A stretch of 21,265 nt of DNA, from contig JBFLYA010000050.1 in assembly GCA_040757115.1 (NCBI GenBank), positions 1-21,265 of the forward strand, read 5' to 3'. Of the stretch, positions 3,411 to 21,265 are shown one piece after another. Below the pieces are notes generated by a model. It saw nothing but the letters and a program-made list of their open reading frames with translations. It was not told the DNA's origin and searched no databases. Within the stretch, counting starts at the first letter, position 1. Every line of letters starts with the position of its first letter. The position numbers and the translations under genes were made by a program. The DNA comes from a bacterium (lineage in GTDB: Bacteria > UBA9089 > CG2-30-40-21 > SBAY01).

Positions 3411-4148
3411 AGAGAATTGGAGGGAATATTGTAAATTCATTTGACAGGCAAAAAGTTAGATGGTAAAATACTGACAACGGACAGACAGAAAATCTGACCA
3501 GACATTTTATGGCTTGAGTTGTAAGGACAGAAATTATAGCGGTTATTAACCTGGAAGTCTACATAGGCTAGAGTTTCGTGATTTTTAGAAGATTGAAATC
3601 CCTTGAAAACACAAGGAAGAGGAATTATTGCAAAGTTATGGCTAAACCATGAGTTGCAAAAAATAGTGAGTGAATTACAAAATTCCAAATCACAAATTAC
3701 AAATTACAAATAAATTCCAATGACCAAAAATCAAAATTCCAAACAAAAGAAAGAGAAGTGCTTTTCAATGAGGCAATAGAATTAAAGAAGAGTTATATTC
3801 CCCTCTTGAGAGGGGTTAGGGGTGTATCCTTCAATTATTGAAAAACCTAAATCTGACATTATTGAGTAAAATATTCAACTCCCTTTAACAAAATTGACAA
3901 AGCAATAGGTTTTGGAATTTGGTGTTTGGAATTTATTTGGAATTTGGTATTTGAAATTTGGAATTTATATTGCAAGGTTATGGTTAAACCATGATGAATA
4001 AATTCACGAAACTCCAGTTTCTCCAAAATGTCAAAAAATACAAAAAGATGGCAAGAAATGAGGTAACACAATGCCAGGGACCATAGATATAACTTTATGT
4101 CCTACGCAACGCTCTCCCCAGATATGGGTAAGTTTCAGAATATTTCTC
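3411..4148. other. Intergenic region with repeats, no gene seen
   Basis: No reading frame here has a ribosome binding site or a recognisable product. The stretch holds a 26-bp direct repeat (ATTGCAARGTTATGGYTAAA..., 3627-3652 and 3969-3994, 24/26 identical), the AT-rich repeat at 3680-3967, and a small hairpin CCCCTC-TTGA-GAGGGG at 3800-3815. The 26-bp repeat brackets the AT-rich repeat closely. Short reading frames in this stretch, mostly on the minus strand, look like products of repetitive sequence. Confidence 0.6.
3680..3967. repeat. AT-rich inverted dispersed repeat, copy 1
   Basis: The left arm (3680-3744, AAATTCCAAATCACAAATTA...) is built of AAATTCC/CAAATTAC units and is roughly complementary to the right arm (about 3911-3966, TTTGGAATTTGGTGTTTGGA...). 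The left arm matches 18701-18765 at 61 of 65 positions, and the core TTCAATTATTGAAAAA at 3830 recurs at 18788 (22 of 23 over the longer match). Copy 1 has about 50 extra bp, including the 3800-3815 hairpin. Confidence 0.75.
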
Positions 4149-9788: not shown

Positions 9789-10406
9789 ATGGGGAAAAAT
9801 CTACTTATTGTCATCTCCGCTCCTTCGGGTGCAGGGAAAACAACGATATGTAAAAGATTAATCAAAACTACACCTAATCTTGTCTTTTCTGTATCAATGA
9901 CTACCAGACAACCACGCGAGAATGAAATTAATGGAGCTGATTATATTTTTGTTGATGTTGATGAATTTGAGGATAAAATTAAAAAGGGTGAATTTATCGA
10001 ATGGGCAAAGATTTATGATGATTATTATGGCACCCCTAAAAAATTCCTTAATGAATCACTTGCCTCTGGAATGGATGTTCTCCTCGACATTGATGCTCAA
10101 GGGGCAATGAATGTTCAGGGAAGATATAGAGATAACAGTGTCCTGATATTTATTATCCCACCTTTCATAGAGGATTTAAAAACACGATTATCCAATCGAA
10201 TGACAGATAGCCTGGAAGAAATAGAAAAACGACTTTCACTGGCAAAACAAGAATTAAAAAATCTTGAGAAGTATGATTATTGCGTCGTCAATGACGACAT
10301 AGGAGTAACGGTCGGAAAATTAAAATCTATCATTATTGCGGAGAAAAATAAGGTAAAAAAAATTGGGAAAGAGATTTTAGAGCAATTGGGAATAGAAGAT
10401 GTATAA
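9789..10406 (+). CDS. gmk: Guanylate kinase
   Basis: A 205-residue guanylate kinase, phosphorylating GMP (and dGMP) with ATP. It has the P-loop SAPSGAGKTT (residues 10-19, Lys17), the GMP-binding segment SVSMTTRQPRENEINGADY, YGTPK, and DIDAQGAMNV in the LID/core region. I place the start at ATG 9789 (MGKNLLIVISAPSG), which gives the usual family length. An upstream in-frame TTG at 9744 would add 15 residues encoded by dispersed-repeat DNA and is unlikely. The strong AGGAGG at 9772-9777 is 11 bases from the ATG, longer than usual. The gene overlaps coaBC by 8 bp (GATGTATAA), implying coupled translation. Confidence 0.95.
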   Translation: MGKNLLIVISAPSGAGKTTICKRLIKTTPNLVFSVSMTTRQPRENEINGADYIFVDVDEFEDKIKKGEFIEWAKIYDDYYGTPKKFLNESLASGMDVLLDIDAQGAMNVQGRYRDNSVLIFIIPPFIEDLKTRLSNRMTDSLEEIEKRLSLAKQELKNLEKYDYCVVNDDIGVTVGKLKSIIIAEKNKVKKIGKEILEQLGIEDV

Positions 10407-11619
10407 CGGTAAAAATATTATTCTGGGAATAACAGGAAGTATAGCGGCTTATAAATCTGCAGAGATAACCAGTCAGTTAGTCAAACTTGGAGCAAATGTT
10501 ACGGTTATAATGACTAAATCTGCGATACAATTCATCTCACCTCTTACCCTTCAAACCATATCTAAAAATAAAGTCATCACAGACCTTTTTGAGATACCTG
10601 CTTCATCCGGGGTAGAGCACATAACTTTGGTAGATAAAGCGGATATTTTCTTAATTGCCCCAGCCACAGCAAATATTATTGGTAAAATAGCCTGCGGTAT
10701 AGCCGATGATTTTTTAACCACTTTTGCCCTTGCCTGTCATTGTCCTATTCTCATTGCCCCGGCGATGAATGAAAAAATGTATCTTAACCCAATGGTCCAG
10801 GCAAATATCAAAAAATTAAAATCTTATGGTATCCAGTTTATTGAACCAGAAGAGGGCATTTTAGCCTGTGGTGAAAAAGGATTAGGCAAATTAGCCCATG
10901 TAGATAAAATACTTACCGAGATTGACTTGATTTTAAATTCATCATCTCTACTGAAGGGTAAAAAGATTTTAGTTACTGCTGGTGGCACACGCGAGCCAAT
11001 TGACCCAGTTCGCTATATCGGAAATCGCTCTTCAGGTAAAATGGGTTACGCCCTGGCTTTGGCGGCTAAAGAATTTGGTGCTGAGGTAACATTGATTAGT
11101 GCCCCGACTCAATTAGAGCCGCCTCAAGGTGTAAAAACTATTTTTGTAGAAACCGCCTTACAAATGCAAGATGAGGTATTAAAGGCATTTCCAGAGGTTG
11201 ATGTCGTCATATCTGCGGCGGCAGTTGCCGATTTTTCACCCATCCAGGTTGCCCCACAAAAGATTAAAAAAACTACCGCAAGCCTATCTTTGGAATTAAA
11301 AAAGACCCCTGACATCCTCGCCCAACTGGGCAAAAATAAAAAAGATAAAATACTCATAGGCTTTGCCGCTGAATCTGAAAACCTTATCTTAAATGCAAAA
11401 AAGAAATTAAAAGAAAAAAACTTAGACCTGATTGTGGTTAATGATATTAAAACAGGATTTGGTCAAGACACAAGCCAGGTAACAATTATTACTAGGGATG
11501 ATAGAATTGAGGAATTACCACTTCTACCTAAAAAAGAGATTGCAAGACGAATCCTTGCAGAAATCAGATTTGGGCGGGTGCGTGTAAAATTTATGGGTAA
11601 AAAATATTCTGAGAGTTAG
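10399..11619 (+). CDS. coaBC: Bifunctional phosphopantothenoylcysteine decarboxylase / phosphopantothenate-cysteine ligase
   Basis: A 406-residue bifunctional coenzyme A biosynthesis enzyme. The N-terminal flavin-dependent CoaC domain shows GITGSIAAYKSAE, catalytic His74 in GVEHITL, Asn124 in APAMNEKMY and Cys157 in ACGEKGLGKL. The CoaB ligase domain begins around residue 190 with VTAGGTREPIDPVRYIGNRS and includes KIKK at 288-291. The ending is odd: after ARRILAEIRFG, the last residues RVRVKFMGKKYSES are encoded by the left end of a mobile element (from 11576). The sequence beyond the element (11962-11983) preserves what looks like the original ending, LTKK-stop. The catalytic domains are intact, so the enzyme is probably functional. 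Confidence 0.95.
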   Translation: MYNGKNIILGITGSIAAYKSAEITSQLVKLGANVTVIMTKSAIQFISPLTLQTISKNKVITDLFEIPASSGVEHITLVDKADIFLIAPATANIIGKIACGIADDFLTTFALACHCPILIAPAMNEKMYLNPMVQANIKKLKSYGIQFIEPEEGILACGEKGLGKLAHVDKILTEIDLILNSSSLLKGKKILVTAGGTREPIDPVRYIGNRSSGKMGYALALAAKEFGAEVTLISAPTQLEPPQGVKTIFVETALQMQDEVLKAFPEVDVVISAAAVADFSPIQVAPQKIKKTTASLSLELKKTPDILAQLGKNKKDKILIGFAAESENLILNAKKKLKEKNLDLIVVNDIKTGFGQDTSQVTIITRDDRIEELPLLPKKEIARRILAEIRFGRVRVKFMGKKYSES

Positions 11620-11632
11620 ACCTGAAATTAAA

Positions 11633-11897
11633 TCAAATATCAAATATCAAAATGCAAAATTACAAATCAAATTTCAAAAAGGACGGGACGGTTCCTTTTA
11701 TCGTTTTTCCTATGATTTTTGTTAGAAATTGGAAATTAGAAATTGGGCTTTTGTCTCTCTCCCTAATTTCTAATTTCAATCCGCAATCTTTCAAACAAAA
11801 GTGAACCGTCCCAAAAGGACTTCTATTTTAACGCTGAAAGGAAAGAGATAATTTTACATTTTGATATGTAATTTTTATATTTGCTTTTTGCATTTTG
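11633..11897 (+). mobile_element. Internal-deletion derivative A of the four-helix-bundle cassette
   Basis: 11633-11683 is identical over 51 bp to 20806-20856 (the start of the four-helix-bundle gene at 20825, including its ATG at 11652 here). 11824-11897 is identical over 74 bp to 21169-21242 (the end of that gene and its 3' flank). The roughly 310 bp of coding sequence between them are missing, and a separate 128-bp element has landed in the remnant. The outer flank CTGAGAGTTAGACC (11609-11622) also matches copy B with one mismatch. Confidence 0.9.
11685..11812. mobile_element. 128-bp MITE-like element with GGGACGGTTC ends
   Basis: The ends are GGGACGGTTC (11685-11694) and its complement GAACCGTCCC (11803-11812). 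The element is bracketed by perfect 8-bp direct repeats AAAAGGAC (11677-11684, 11813-11820). The centre has another inverted pair (GGAAATTAGAAATTGGG against CCCTAATTTCTAATTTC). No coding capacity. Removing it with one repeat restores a continuous deleted cassette. Confidence 0.85.
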
Positions 11898-11961
11898 CTC
11901 TTTGGAGGAGATTGATAAAAATAGAGGTGTAAAAGTTACCCACAAATTTTACATACACCCT

Positions 11962-12990: not shown

Positions 12991-13271
12991 TTAGAGTTCT
13001 GCAAAACTAAGAAACTGTAGTTTTTAAGCGGGTATTTAAAACCTCTTTTTATCAATTTCCTCCAAAGAGCAAAATGCAAAAAGCAAATATAAAAATTACA
13101 TATCAAAATGTAAAATTATCTCTTCCCTTTCAGCGTTAAAATACTTGAAGCAAAGATATTACCAATTTGAAATTTGATTTGTAATTTTGCATTTTGATAT
13201 TTGATTTTTTATCTCTAATTTCAGGTCTACCTCTCAGTTATCTCCCCCAAATCCTATTTTGCAGAACCCTA
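12991..13271 (-). mobile_element. Internal-deletion derivative B of the four-helix-bundle cassette (inverted)
   Basis: Read on the minus strand, this starts TTAGGGTTCTGCAAAATAGG, with 27 bp from TAGGG identical to 20763-20789. It continues through the ATGCAAAATTACAAATC start region, then jumps to TTGGTAATATCTTTGC; 13070-13165 matches 21147-21242 at 95 of 96 positions. About 295 bp of coding sequence are deleted. The ends TTAGGGTTCTGCAAAA and TTAGAGTTCTGCAAAA are near-perfect inverted repeats. ACTATAAAC (12982-12990 and 13272-13280) is a possible 9-bp target duplication within a host hairpin repeat (about 12940-13295). No gene is seen in 12919-13436. Confidence 0.85.
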
Positions 13272-14218: not shown

Positions 14219-15688
14219 ATGACTTATGATGTCGGAGAAAAAACTAAAAGAAGTATTTTTTGGGTAACTTCTGGTCGAATATGCAATTATATAATTGAAT
14301 TTGTTGGTGGGGTAATAGTCGCCCGGATTCTATTTCCTCAAGATTTTGGGATTATGGCAATTGCCATGATTTTTATTCACTTCGCACAACGATTGGGTGA
14401 ATTTGGTTTTAATGTCGCCTTAATTCAAAAAGAAAAAATTACACAGGACCACATTTTTACAATATTTATGATTAATTTTGGGATGGGAACCATCTTATGC
14501 CTTTCTCTGGTCGGAACTTCTCCTTTTATTGGGAAGTTCTACGATAATGACCTGGTAGGAAAGGTATTGGCTGTTGTTTCCATAGAGTTTATCTTGAGAG
14601 GTTTAGCAAGCACTCCTGTGGCATTGTTGCAGAGGGAACTCAAATATGGTCAACATTCTGCAATTTCTTTGATAAGTATAATTTTATCAACCGGAGTAAC
14701 TATTCTATTAGCCTTAGCTAATTTTGAAATCTGGAGTCTTGTATTTGGCAGATTAGCTGCAAGTGTTGCGGAAATTATTAGTATTATGATTATAACTAAA
14801 TGGATTCCAAAATTTAGGTATAAACATTGGGCAATGAAAGAAATGTTTTCTTTTGGTATATGGATGTTTTTGAGGGCTCAACTTGCTTATTTCCTTAGAA
14901 ATATAGACTATCTTATTATTAGTAAAAGGCTGGGCGTTGTCCCGTTAGGTTTTTATGAAAGAGGAAATAACCTGGTCATTGCCTCTCAAAGACTAATTGG
15001 CATAGGTGTTCAGCAGGTAAGTTTTTCTTCGTTTTCCCGAATTCAAAAAGATAGTGAACTTTTGAAAAATACCTTTCAGAAAATATTAACAGGGCTCTCC
15101 CTCTATAACTATTCTATTTTAATAGGGATGTTTTTAGTTGCTCCTTCATTTATTCCTGTAGTCTATGGGGAAAAATGGATACCAACAATTTTACCTCTTC
15201 AAATTCTATGTTTCTCTGGTATCCCTCGCTCTTTAGAATTTTTAAGTAACTCATTTGCTACGGCCAAAGGAGACTTGAAAAAATTTACAGGAGTCCTGGC
15301 GATTCATTTTATCTTTTTATCTATCGCCTGTTTTATAGGGAGTTTTTATGGTATCATTGGAGTGGCTATTGGTGTAACTATCTCAAGCGTTTTCGTCTAT
15401 ATTCTTCTATTTAATTTCCTGATGCATCTTGGTGGGTTTAAATTAATGGATATTCTGTCACCGCAAATCCCTGCCTTAACCTATATTAGTATTATGGTAT
15501 TAGGGGTAAAATCATGGGAATTAATGATGAAAAACCTCTGGCAAATACAATCATTCCCTATGCTTATTTCCTCTATCCTTGTAGGAGGGATATTATATTT
15601 TGGCGCTTTATTTACGATAAGATTTAAACAGACGGAATTTTTAAGGCTGGAATTAATGACCAGGATTAAATCAGTTCTTAAAAGGTAA
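14219..15688 (+). CDS. Oligosaccharide flippase, MOP superfamily (WzxC-like)
   Basis: A 489-residue, highly hydrophobic protein with about twelve or more membrane segments. The N-terminus has the Polysacc_synt look (TKRSIFWVTSGRICNYIIEF, then VIVARILFPQDFGIMAIAM and EFGFNVALIQ), typical of WzxC-like flippases that move lipid-linked glycans across the inner membrane. AAAGGA ends eight bases before the ATG, and the preceding gene ends 14 bp away. The stop codon TAA at 15686-15688 is contributed by the first bases of the inserted element at 15685 (GTAAC...), so the C-terminus has been set by that insertion. No glycosyltransferases are in the window, so the transported glycan cannot be named. Confidence 0.9.
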   Translation: MTYDVGEKTKRSIFWVTSGRICNYIIEFVGGVIVARILFPQDFGIMAIAMIFIHFAQRLGEFGFNVALIQKEKITQDHIFTIFMINFGMGTILCLSLVGTSPFIGKFYDNDLVGKVLAVVSIEFILRGLASTPVALLQRELKYGQHSAISLISIILSTGVTILLALANFEIWSLVFGRLAASVAEIISIMIITKWIPKFRYKHWAMKEMFSFGIWMFLRAQLAYFLRNIDYLIISKRLGVVPLGFYERGNNLVIASQRLIGIGVQQVSFSSFSRIQKDSELLKNTFQKILTGLSLYNYSILIGMFLVAPSFIPVVYGEKWIPTILPLQILCFSGIPRSLEFLSNSFATAKGDLKKFTGVLAIHFIFLSIACFIGSFYGIIGVAIGVTISSVFVYILLFNFLMHLGGFKLMDILSPQIPALTYISIMVLGVKSWELMMKNLWQIQSFPMLISSILVGGILYFGALFTIRFKQTEFLRLELMTRIKSVLKR

Positions 15689-16177
15689 CTATTCACCCTG
15701 TAGGAAAGTAGGAGAGTAGGGAAGTAGGAAAGGGAAAGAAAATGAATGAGAAGTTAGATGATTTTAGACAACTTGTAGTATGGCAAAAAAGCCATCATTT
15801 AGTGATAAGAATATACGAAATAACCAAAAACTTCCCAACTGAAGAAAAATATGGATTGGTGCAACAGATGTGCCCAGCGGCTGTTTCTATTCCAGCAAAT
15901 ATTGCAGAAGGTTTTAAGAAACAAGGCATAAAGAATAAGTTAAATGCCTATAATATAAGCCAAGGATCTCTTGAAGAACTAAGGTATTATCTAATTCTAT
16001 CTAAAGATCTTAATTATCTGCCAGATTTTCAATCCATTTGGGATATATCTGAAGAAGTGAGTAGGATGCTTATAGGTTTAATCAAATCAATTAAGAGTAA
16101 AATAGTATGAAGTATTTTCCCCTCTTCCTACTTCCTACTTTCCTACTTCCTACTTGCTTGGTATGCTGAATAGTTAC
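15685..16177 (+). mobile_element. GTAACYRTTCA-end cassette carrying a four-helix-bundle gene (E1)
   Basis: GTAACTATTCA (15685-15695) and its exact complement TGAATAGTTAC (16167-16177) bound a 493-bp unit. Inside each end is a tandem array of GTAGGAA-like units: purine-rich at 15700-15734 and its pyrimidine-rich complement at 16119-16157. The only gene is the four-helix-bundle protein at 15742-16110. The Shine-Dalgarno AAAGGG of that gene lies in the left array and could be hidden by pairing with the right array. The unit splits the flippase-ACP gap. No clear target duplication is visible. Confidence 0.8.
15742..16110 (+). CDS. Four-helix-bundle protein (S23 / 23S rRNA intervening-sequence family)
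   Basis: A 122-residue, all-helical protein with the family pattern FRQLVVWQKSHHLVIRIYEI, FPTEEKYGLVQQM, AAVSIPANIAEG, then GSLEELRYYLILSKDL. This is the S23/IVS family first seen in intervening sequences of 23S rRNA genes and now found widely; its function is unclear. Related proteins such as Avd work with diversity-generating retroelements, but no reverse transcriptase or template repeat is present here. The gene is cargo of the element at 15685-16177. AAAGGG (15729-15734) precedes the ATG by seven bases. It is clearly different in sequence from the family member at 20825. Confidence 0.9.
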   Translation: MNEKLDDFRQLVVWQKSHHLVIRIYEITKNFPTEEKYGLVQQMCPAAVSIPANIAEGFKKQGIKNKLNAYNISQGSLEELRYYLILSKDLNYLPDFQSIWDISEEVSRMLIGLIKSIKSKIV

Positions 16178-18614: not shown

Positions 18615-18630
18615 CCTTTTTATTTGAAAC

Positions 18631-18996
18631 GGGTGCGTGTAAAATTTATGGGTAACTATTTAGCCGTCTGAAGTAACGGTTAAATCAATTGAAAATCACA
18701 AAATTCCAAATCACAAATACCAAATTACAAATAAATTTCAATGACCAAAATTCAAAATTCCAAACAATACAGGAAAAAGATTTTTTCTTCAATTATTGAA
18801 AAATCTAAATAAATTCCTCTCGTTGTCATATAATCTTTGGAATTTGAAACTTATTTGGAAATTGGAATTTGGAATTTATTTGAGATTTGGTGCTTGGAAT
18901 TTGTAATTTTCGCATTGAATTTCATCTATTTCTTTATATCGGCAAAAAGATGAATATTCCTCAATATTTTTTACCCACAAATTTTACATACACCTG
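18631..18996. mobile_element. GGGTGYGTG-end non-autonomous element, second copy, with 8-bp target duplication
   Basis: The left end (18631-18655) is identical over 25 bp to the left end inside coaBC (11576-11600). The right end TTACCCACAAATTTTACATA... (18971-18995) matches 11936-11960 at 24 of 25. Perfect 8-bp direct repeats TTTGAAAC flank it (18623-18630, 18997-19004). In both copies two extra bases follow ACACC before the duplication. The cargo differs: here it is the AT-rich repeat at 18701. No coding capacity is seen. Confidence 0.88.
18701..18910. repeat. AT-rich inverted dispersed repeat, copy 2
   Basis: AAATTCCAAATCACAAATAC... at 18701-18765 matches copy 1 (3680-3744) at 61 of 65 positions. 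The right arm of GGAATTTGGAATTTATTTGA-like units ends near 18910. It lies wholly inside the element at 18631-18996, so it is either cargo or a later insertion. Confidence 0.75.
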
Positions 18997-20762: not shown

Positions 20763-21265
20763 TAGGGTTCTGCAAAATAGGATTTGGGGAATTAGAGATA
20801 AAAATTCAAATATCAAATATCAAAATGCAAAATTACAAATCAAATTTCAAAAAGGATTTCAAGAAAAGACTGTATAACTTTACTCTGCGACTTATAGAAT
20901 TCATCGATAAGTTACCAAAGGATAGTGTTTCTCAAAGAATTGGTGATCAATTATTACGGAGTGGTACAAGCATCATTGGGAATTATATTGAAGGGCAGGC
21001 GGCGAGTAGTAAAAAAGATTTTACTAATTTCTTTGATACATCTCTAAAATCAACTAATGAAAGTAAGTTATGGCTTGCATTACTTCGTGATAGTAAACGT
21101 GCTAAACCAGAGGAAGTAGCATGGTTTCTCAAAGAGTTGGAGGAATTTGGTAATATCTTTGCTTCAAGTATTTTAACGCTGAAAGGAAAGAGATAATTTT
21201 ACATTTTGATATGTAATTTTTATATTTGCTTTTTGCATTTTGATTTTTGGAGAATACCCGCTTAA
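20763..21265 (+). mobile_element. Four-helix-bundle gene cassette, intact copy C (right end beyond window)
   Basis: It begins TAGGGTTCTGCAAAATAGG at 20763 (27 bp identical to copy B's end), then AATTAGAGATAAAAATTC and the AAATATCAAATATC flank leading straight into the ATG at 20825. After the stop, the 3' flank ATTTTACATTTTGATATG... continues to TACCCGCTTAA at the window end, also matching copy B. Gene plus flanks form one conserved unit; copies A and B retain the flanks without the gene body. The right terminus (expected to contain TTTTGCAGAAC) is outside the window. Confidence 0.85.
20825..21196 (+). CDS. Four-helix-bundle protein (S23 / 23S rRNA intervening-sequence family), cassette-borne
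   Basis: A 123-residue helical protein with the S23/IVS-family core: RLYNFTLRLIEFIDKLPKD, QRIGDQLLRSGTSIIGNYIE, GQAASSKKDFTNFF, NESKLWLALLRDS, then ELEEFGNIFASSILTLKGKR. The length is normal. There is no Shine-Dalgarno sequence: the ATG sits in the repeat sequence ATATCAAAATGCAAAATTAC. Both the first 10 codons and the last 15 or so are made of sequence that also occurs, without the gene body, at 11633-11897 and 12991-13271. It shares family but little sequence with the gene at 15742. Function is unknown; it may be cargo, or take part in spread of the cassette. Confidence 0.9.
   Translation: MQNYKSNFKKDFKKRLYNFTLRLIEFIDKLPKDSVSQRIGDQLLRSGTSIIGNYIEGQAASSKKDFTNFFDTSLKSTNESKLWLALLRDSKRAKPEEVAWFLKELEEFGNIFASSILTLKGKR

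Follow-up and report, generated by a model that had tools for sequence, protein, structure and literature searches.

An S23-bearing element resembling a mobile insertion cassette, found at a steady spacing from ribosome-binding sites

According to our analysis, the S23-type four-helix-bundle gene at the end of the 21,265-nucleotide stretch studied here (the window, which is contig C50 of a 4.3-Mb source genome in 462 contigs, G000) belongs to an element, referred to as A, which has spread to about 100 places, mostly as gene-deleted copies. Judged from sequence comparison, A appears to be a real multicopy mobile insertion cassette, with S23 as its selected cargo or helper. The surprising part of the element is a precise preference for ribosome-binding sites, and we found no description in the open-access literature of insertion anchored on Shine-Dalgarno sequences.

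Anatomy and copies of element A

The gene-bearing copy in the window runs on the forward strand from its 5' end at 20763 to the contig end at 21265, which cuts it, and its right end lies on contig C22 (L003). Terminal inverted repeats of ~15 bp, TAGGGTTCTGCAAAAT / ATTTTGCAGAACYCTA, are present at both ends; the ends read TAGGGTTCTGC, with CAGGG in a few copies. The left terminal inverted repeat TAGGGTTCTGCAAAATAG (20763..20780, forward strand) is followed by an A/T-rich, short-period left arm of the S23 cassette (20800..20858, forward), which overlaps the start of the open reading frame (ORF), while the right arm (21194..21252, forward) is a partial complement of the left one. S23 is the sole ORF and no transposase is encoded within. 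The whole element folds with its ends paired (z of -3.05). At the end of C22, the right part of A is followed by a gene whose product begins MNNKSKVLKD; since this gene also follows the corresponding locus in the sister species G001, we infer that the window copy is complete in the genome. Its neighbors are a FIST-domain gene on one side and another protein gene on the other, and its target duplication is about GGC(A/G)AGAAA.

The repeat identities that the earlier note had listed among three places of the window were all exact upon recomputation: 20806-20856 is identical to 11633-11683 over 51 bp, 21169-21242 is identical to 11824-11897 over 74 bp, and 21147-21242 shows one mismatch to the reverse complement of 13070-13165. 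A search of the source genome with the flanks, set beforehand as a test, excluded that they are unique to these three places, since the left end TAGGGTTCTGCAAAATAG occurs in 116 genome copies with no more than three mismatches (48 forward, 68 reverse). The 3' flank of the cassette has at least 40 scored copies. Reversed-pattern controls for the flank and end counts gave 0-1 matches (0 and 1 for the left end), and the repetition is not attributable to chance. The flank repeats were thus borne out but are too short as element ends, the true ends lying outside them (TAGGGTTCTGC, from 20763). They make up only a small fraction of a large family, so that the case had been understated, and terminal repeats, target duplications, and the fixed Shine-Dalgarno spacing had been overlooked.

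The complete copies first aligned are 258-584 bp long. A 584-bp copy on contig C211, with a duplication of about TGGTACCAA, keeps an S23 gene whose protein is 98% identical to that of the window, and these are the two copies of A that retain the gene. Of the other copies examined, nearly all have lost internal sequence: aligned to the C211 copy, the shorter ones keep both ends, many contain fragments of the S23 frame, and several have other repeats inserted within the right arm. The window itself holds a complete gene-deleted copy of 280 bp on the reverse strand (12992..13271), flanked on each side by the duplication AGTTTATAGT. A considerable share of the left ends is composite, the left half of A being joined to another repeat (GGTGGTGTC..GACACCACC). 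The alignment of copies supports the earlier proposal of a parent that bears the gene and of MITE-like derivatives that have lost internal sequence. Target duplications of 8-13 bp were called in 27 of 33 two-ended copies, a set which requires the left end by construction, and also in the window gene-bearing copy; because up to one mismatch was allowed, single lengths may err by one base.

Target choice at ribosome-binding sites

Among the 28 copies with a clear duplication, namely, the 27 two-ended copies and the gene-bearing copy of the window, GGAG stands at +7 after the duplication (6 nt between) in 18 and at +6 (5 nt between) in 3 more, and GG occupies bases 7-8 in 20. Both gene-bearing copies have GGAG at +7. 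The 18 of 28 correspond to a p of about 1e-41 against the GGAG frequency in the window and of about 1e-22 (binomial) against a uniform position within 40 nt. The spacing to GGAG is steady though the length of the duplication varies, so that the ribosome-binding site sets one of the two cuts but not the second. Among 17 copies selected for a readable GGAG and start codon, the standard deviation of the spacing was 0.4 nt to GGAG versus 1.6 nt to the start codon.

Insertion of A is in a single orientation with respect to the gene: 37 of 45 right ends, versus 1 of 33 left ends, have GGAG no more than 40 nt away on their outer side (background, 7%). The same GGAG spacing is kept by one copy of A in G001, and a different element on contig C260, which has A's end, shows a compatible GGAG distance. 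No such spacing was found in four other families of the source genome (GTAACTATTCA, GTAACCGTTCA, GGTGGTGTC, and AGTGCTCTGTCGC). General Shine-Dalgarno anchoring was likewise not seen for S23 cassettes of other phyla (13 of 71 versus a background of about 17-21%), in which a same-strand downstream gene is commoner to the right (13 versus 1).

The S23 gene and its cassettes

The S23 gene (20825..21196, forward strand) encodes a four-helix-bundle protein of 123 amino acids (TIGR02436, PF05635), and a profile of this protein and its relatives matches the solved chains 2rld and 2gsc. Between the two gene-bearing copies of A there are 3 nonsynonymous and 6 synonymous differences (pN/pS of 0.13; p of 0.003), and fragments in G010, a genome of the same phylum but another family, show 12 and 18 (pN/pS of 0.16; p of 1e-6). 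The reading frame is under purifying selection; the check on gene-bearing copies that the earlier note had put forward therefore came out as selection kept, with pN/pS of 0.13-0.16. Given this selection, the gene is most likely translated and useful to something, be it the host or the element. S23 has no known catalytic motif, and its similarity to the Avd model is weak (19.5 bits, with a cut-off of 80).

The S23 core also occurs with different outer ends in other elements. G010 has about three copies of it (at least three), which are 87% identical in DNA and split by contig ends, with outer ends ACTTTGGCAAATTTGC / TTTGCCAAAGTTGAG unlike those of A. In the window, 11577..11959 (forward) is a gene-deleted remnant of the core with other sequence inside; it had been taken as a further copy of the same unit, which holds for the shared core but not for the kind of element, since the outer ends are GGGTGCGTGTAAAATTT..AAATTTTACATACACCC. 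The gene-less copies of A have terminal repeats and duplications like those of the gene-bearing ones. That gene-less copies move, that S23 has no catalytic motif, and that its core is found with other ends point to S23 being not the transposase but cargo or an accessory factor.

A second S23 element (15685..16177, forward; gene at 15742-16110) has ends GTAACTATTCA..TGAATAGTTAC and arms (TAGGAAAG)n/(CTTTCCTA)n. A third subfamily is represented by two gene-deleted cassettes on the forward strand, 3668..3970, with arms AATTCCAAATCACAAATT.., and 18699..18909, whose coding remnant covers parent S23 residues 1-10 and 110-121. Nearly every S23 gene inspected in the source genome is flanked by complementary short tandem repeats, whose unit differs by subfamily, and across phyla the arms are complementary tandem repeats of 7-8 nt. 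Over 79 S23 loci from many phyla, the median score of left-right complementarity was 27, compared with 12 for swapped partners (p of about 1e-32) and 11 for other genes (p of about 1e-36). This layout is the plan of 23S intervening sequences; for S23 cassettes with tandem arms outside rRNA, we found no description in the open-access literature.

Comparison of the sister species showed a change in arm repeat number (C121) and the loss of the gene through recombination between the arms (C126). Unrelated S23 cassettes occupy the same intergenic site at gyrA and at the window locus, and a gene-less hairpin occupies the same site at rpmF and on C16. In the tRNA-Leu/gyrA interval, the unrelated cassettes L067 (C33:16754) and L360 (G001 C98) have near-identical outer junctions. 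Since most intergenic regions here are filled with hairpins, we do not regard the sharing of a site as proving exchange.

Some further observations concern S23 cassettes and related repeats in other surroundings. L061 (C42:6810-7124) and L066 (C7:38447-38767) are S23 cassettes among CRISPR-like repeats (..GACCTGATGAATAAGGGATTGCGAC), and the interval next to L061 contains a gene-less hairpin with identical arms. L062 (C301:2923-3237) lies between putative cas2 and cas4 genes; S23 genes in cas loci appear in a published survey (PMC3936711). Within the window, a repeat end at 11575-11619, which recurs at 18630, encodes the last residues of a coaBC-like ORF (10399-11619), so that an element end appears to be the source of this protein's C terminus. 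Positions 15665-15672 are the empty site for an element of G001 (L353), which is GTAA-ended and has short-period arms, no S23 gene, and an 8-bp duplication, ATTAAATC. In L370 (G001 C269), a small GxxExxY-like gene adjoins a reverse-transcriptase fragment and a formylglycine-enzyme-like gene; this locus, named by eye, is possibly a candidate broken diversity-generating retroelement.

Mechanism and the search for a mobilizing enzyme

We deem it probable that A is a transposase-less mobile insertion cassette moved by a trans-acting transposase which reads Shine-Dalgarno DNA. Such an enzyme would bind the terminal repeats of A, pick its target DNA by the motif A-rich-GGAGG, and cut one strand at a fixed distance from the motif and the other strand 8-13 nt upstream; deleted copies would persist because the same ends are used for movement. 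S23 would be useful cargo or an accessory factor, and we favor, speculatively, a nucleic-acid-binding role on the arms. DDE transposases do not usually make one fixed and one variable cut, which counts against this reading. Direct repeats of about 8-13 bp are described for the IS4 family (PMC2266710), so that a variable duplication length is known for DNA transposases. As regards the earlier suggestion that the S23 protein or a structure of the flanks takes part in a mobility system, the MITE-like relation between parent and deleted copies is supported, whereas S23 or its RNA is at most a possible driver of mobility.

No transposase with A's ends was found among the ISAs1 and DDE_Tnp_1 families searched in the source genome. 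An ISAs1-type partner, suggested by the CAGGG-like ends, is absent, and none of the nine DDE_Tnp_1 loci scanned for known end motifs has A's ends; flanking inverted repeats, computed for seven of the nine, include none like A's. A conventional insertion sequence accounting for all ends, which had been named as a possible explanation, was thus not found at the loci covered. A search of the fetched loci for A-ended elements, with a loose filter, gave a single clear case, the C260 element (L171); truncated by the contig end, it is distinct from A but shares A's right end, and it may belong to an autonomous relative. A 610-amino-acid transposase, considered as a partner of the third subfamily on account of an AGTGCT..-type end, was dropped because this end faces the wrong way. 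Neither the left end of A nor the right part of the cassette had an exact match in viral contigs.

A wider reading, which we regard as rather doubtful, is that S23 genes with 7-8-nt-repeat arms are widespread mobile hairpin cassettes, S23 aiding its own spread, and that A uses a Shine-Dalgarno-recognizing machinery, possibly with a primed RNA copy. Also unlikely is an RNA-mediated, target-primed insertion, in which the bottom strand would be nicked 6 nt from CCTCC and its 3' end would prime copying of the folded element RNA; a loose second nick would give the variable duplication, the terminal repeats would form a stem in the RNA, and S23, as a distant relative of the retroelement protein Avd, would assist a trans-supplied reverse transcriptase. 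This fits the junction fixed beside the 3' end of A with a duplication variable on the other side, the single orientation relative to the gene, the paired-end fold of the whole element (z of -3.05), the weak Avd similarity of S23, and the two reverse transcriptases of G000. However, among the copies inspected no 5'-truncated ones with their own duplication were recognized, although the two-ended set by its construction contains only copies with a left end, and Rfam gave no match to a known intron (group I/II) or RNA family. Moreover, no reverse transcriptase was detectable in G010, where the S23 core is present at least three times, so there is no consistent partner.

That the S23 hairpin cassette is itself mobile through its arms and protein, the outer repeats being elements it landed in, is quite unlikely. 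It would agree with the occurrence of one core with different outer ends in G000, G010, and window 11577-11959, with the selected S23 frame, with complementary arms at S23 genes of many phyla, and with the finding that two sister species carry different S23 cassettes or hairpins in shared intergenic sites. Yet no clean empty site or duplication was found for a cassette without outer repeats, the intergenic regions are so hairpin-rich that coincidence at one site is plausible, and loss by arm recombination was seen (C126 locus) but gain was not. Very improbable is selection, i.e., that only insertions just upstream of a ribosome-binding site are tolerated: insertions in a dense genome do survive in intergenic space, but tolerance predicts a range of distances instead of the 5-6 nt observed in most copies, and the other repeat families lack the spacing. 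An assembly artefact or tandem-repeat noise is hardly credible, for although the contig ends within a repeat and the assembly is in 462 contigs, dozens of complete copies have unique flanks and matching duplications, and the genes flanking the window copy are adjacent in a second genome.

Known systems and implications

Mobile insertion cassettes (MIC231 and its relatives) are mobilized in trans by IS231/IS4-family transposases. Like them, A is transposase-less, is bounded by terminal repeats, duplicates close to 10 bp of its target, and carries a passenger gene, but its passenger is S23, its insertion is anchored on GGAGG, and no partner transposase was found. Mobile insertion cassette terms occur in passages of PMC3913671 and PMC2266710. 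The duplications of A fall in the IS4 range, whereas its ends TAGGGTTCTGC are without the subgroup signatures (CAT.., CA.., -AATR.., and CT..). Similar to prokaryotic MITEs such as Correia/NEMIS, RUP, and BOX, which are reviewed in PMC10969869, the derivatives of A are short, A/T-rich, folded, and noncoding, with terminal repeats, and often lie beside genes; A differs in that its genome also contains the gene-bearing parent and in that its orientation and its ribosome-binding-site spacing are fixed. With Avd of diversity-generating retroelements, S23 shares a distantly similar four-helix-bundle protein, although it falls below the curated cut-off and no reverse transcriptase lies beside the S23 gene in the window.

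Intervening sequences of 23S rRNA with an S23 ORF were reportedly described by Ralph and McClelland in 1993. The Coxiella 23S intervening sequence carries such an ORF (PMC4990558). Both these sequences and A contain an S23 gene within complementary flanks able to form a long stem, but A lies between protein genes rather than in rRNA and has terminal repeats and target duplications. How S23-bearing intervening sequences move, and what S23 does, has been a question since the 1990s (discussed in PMC4990558). The selection on S23, the hairpin arms across phyla, and a multicopy family with intact and deleted members make this question directly testable. Were the wider reading given above correct, the rRNA intervening sequences would gain a mobility mechanism. 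A fixed six-base distance from ribosome-binding sites would constitute a new target choice for a bacterial transposon, and such targeting can put the insert in the mRNA leader while leaving the translation signal untouched.
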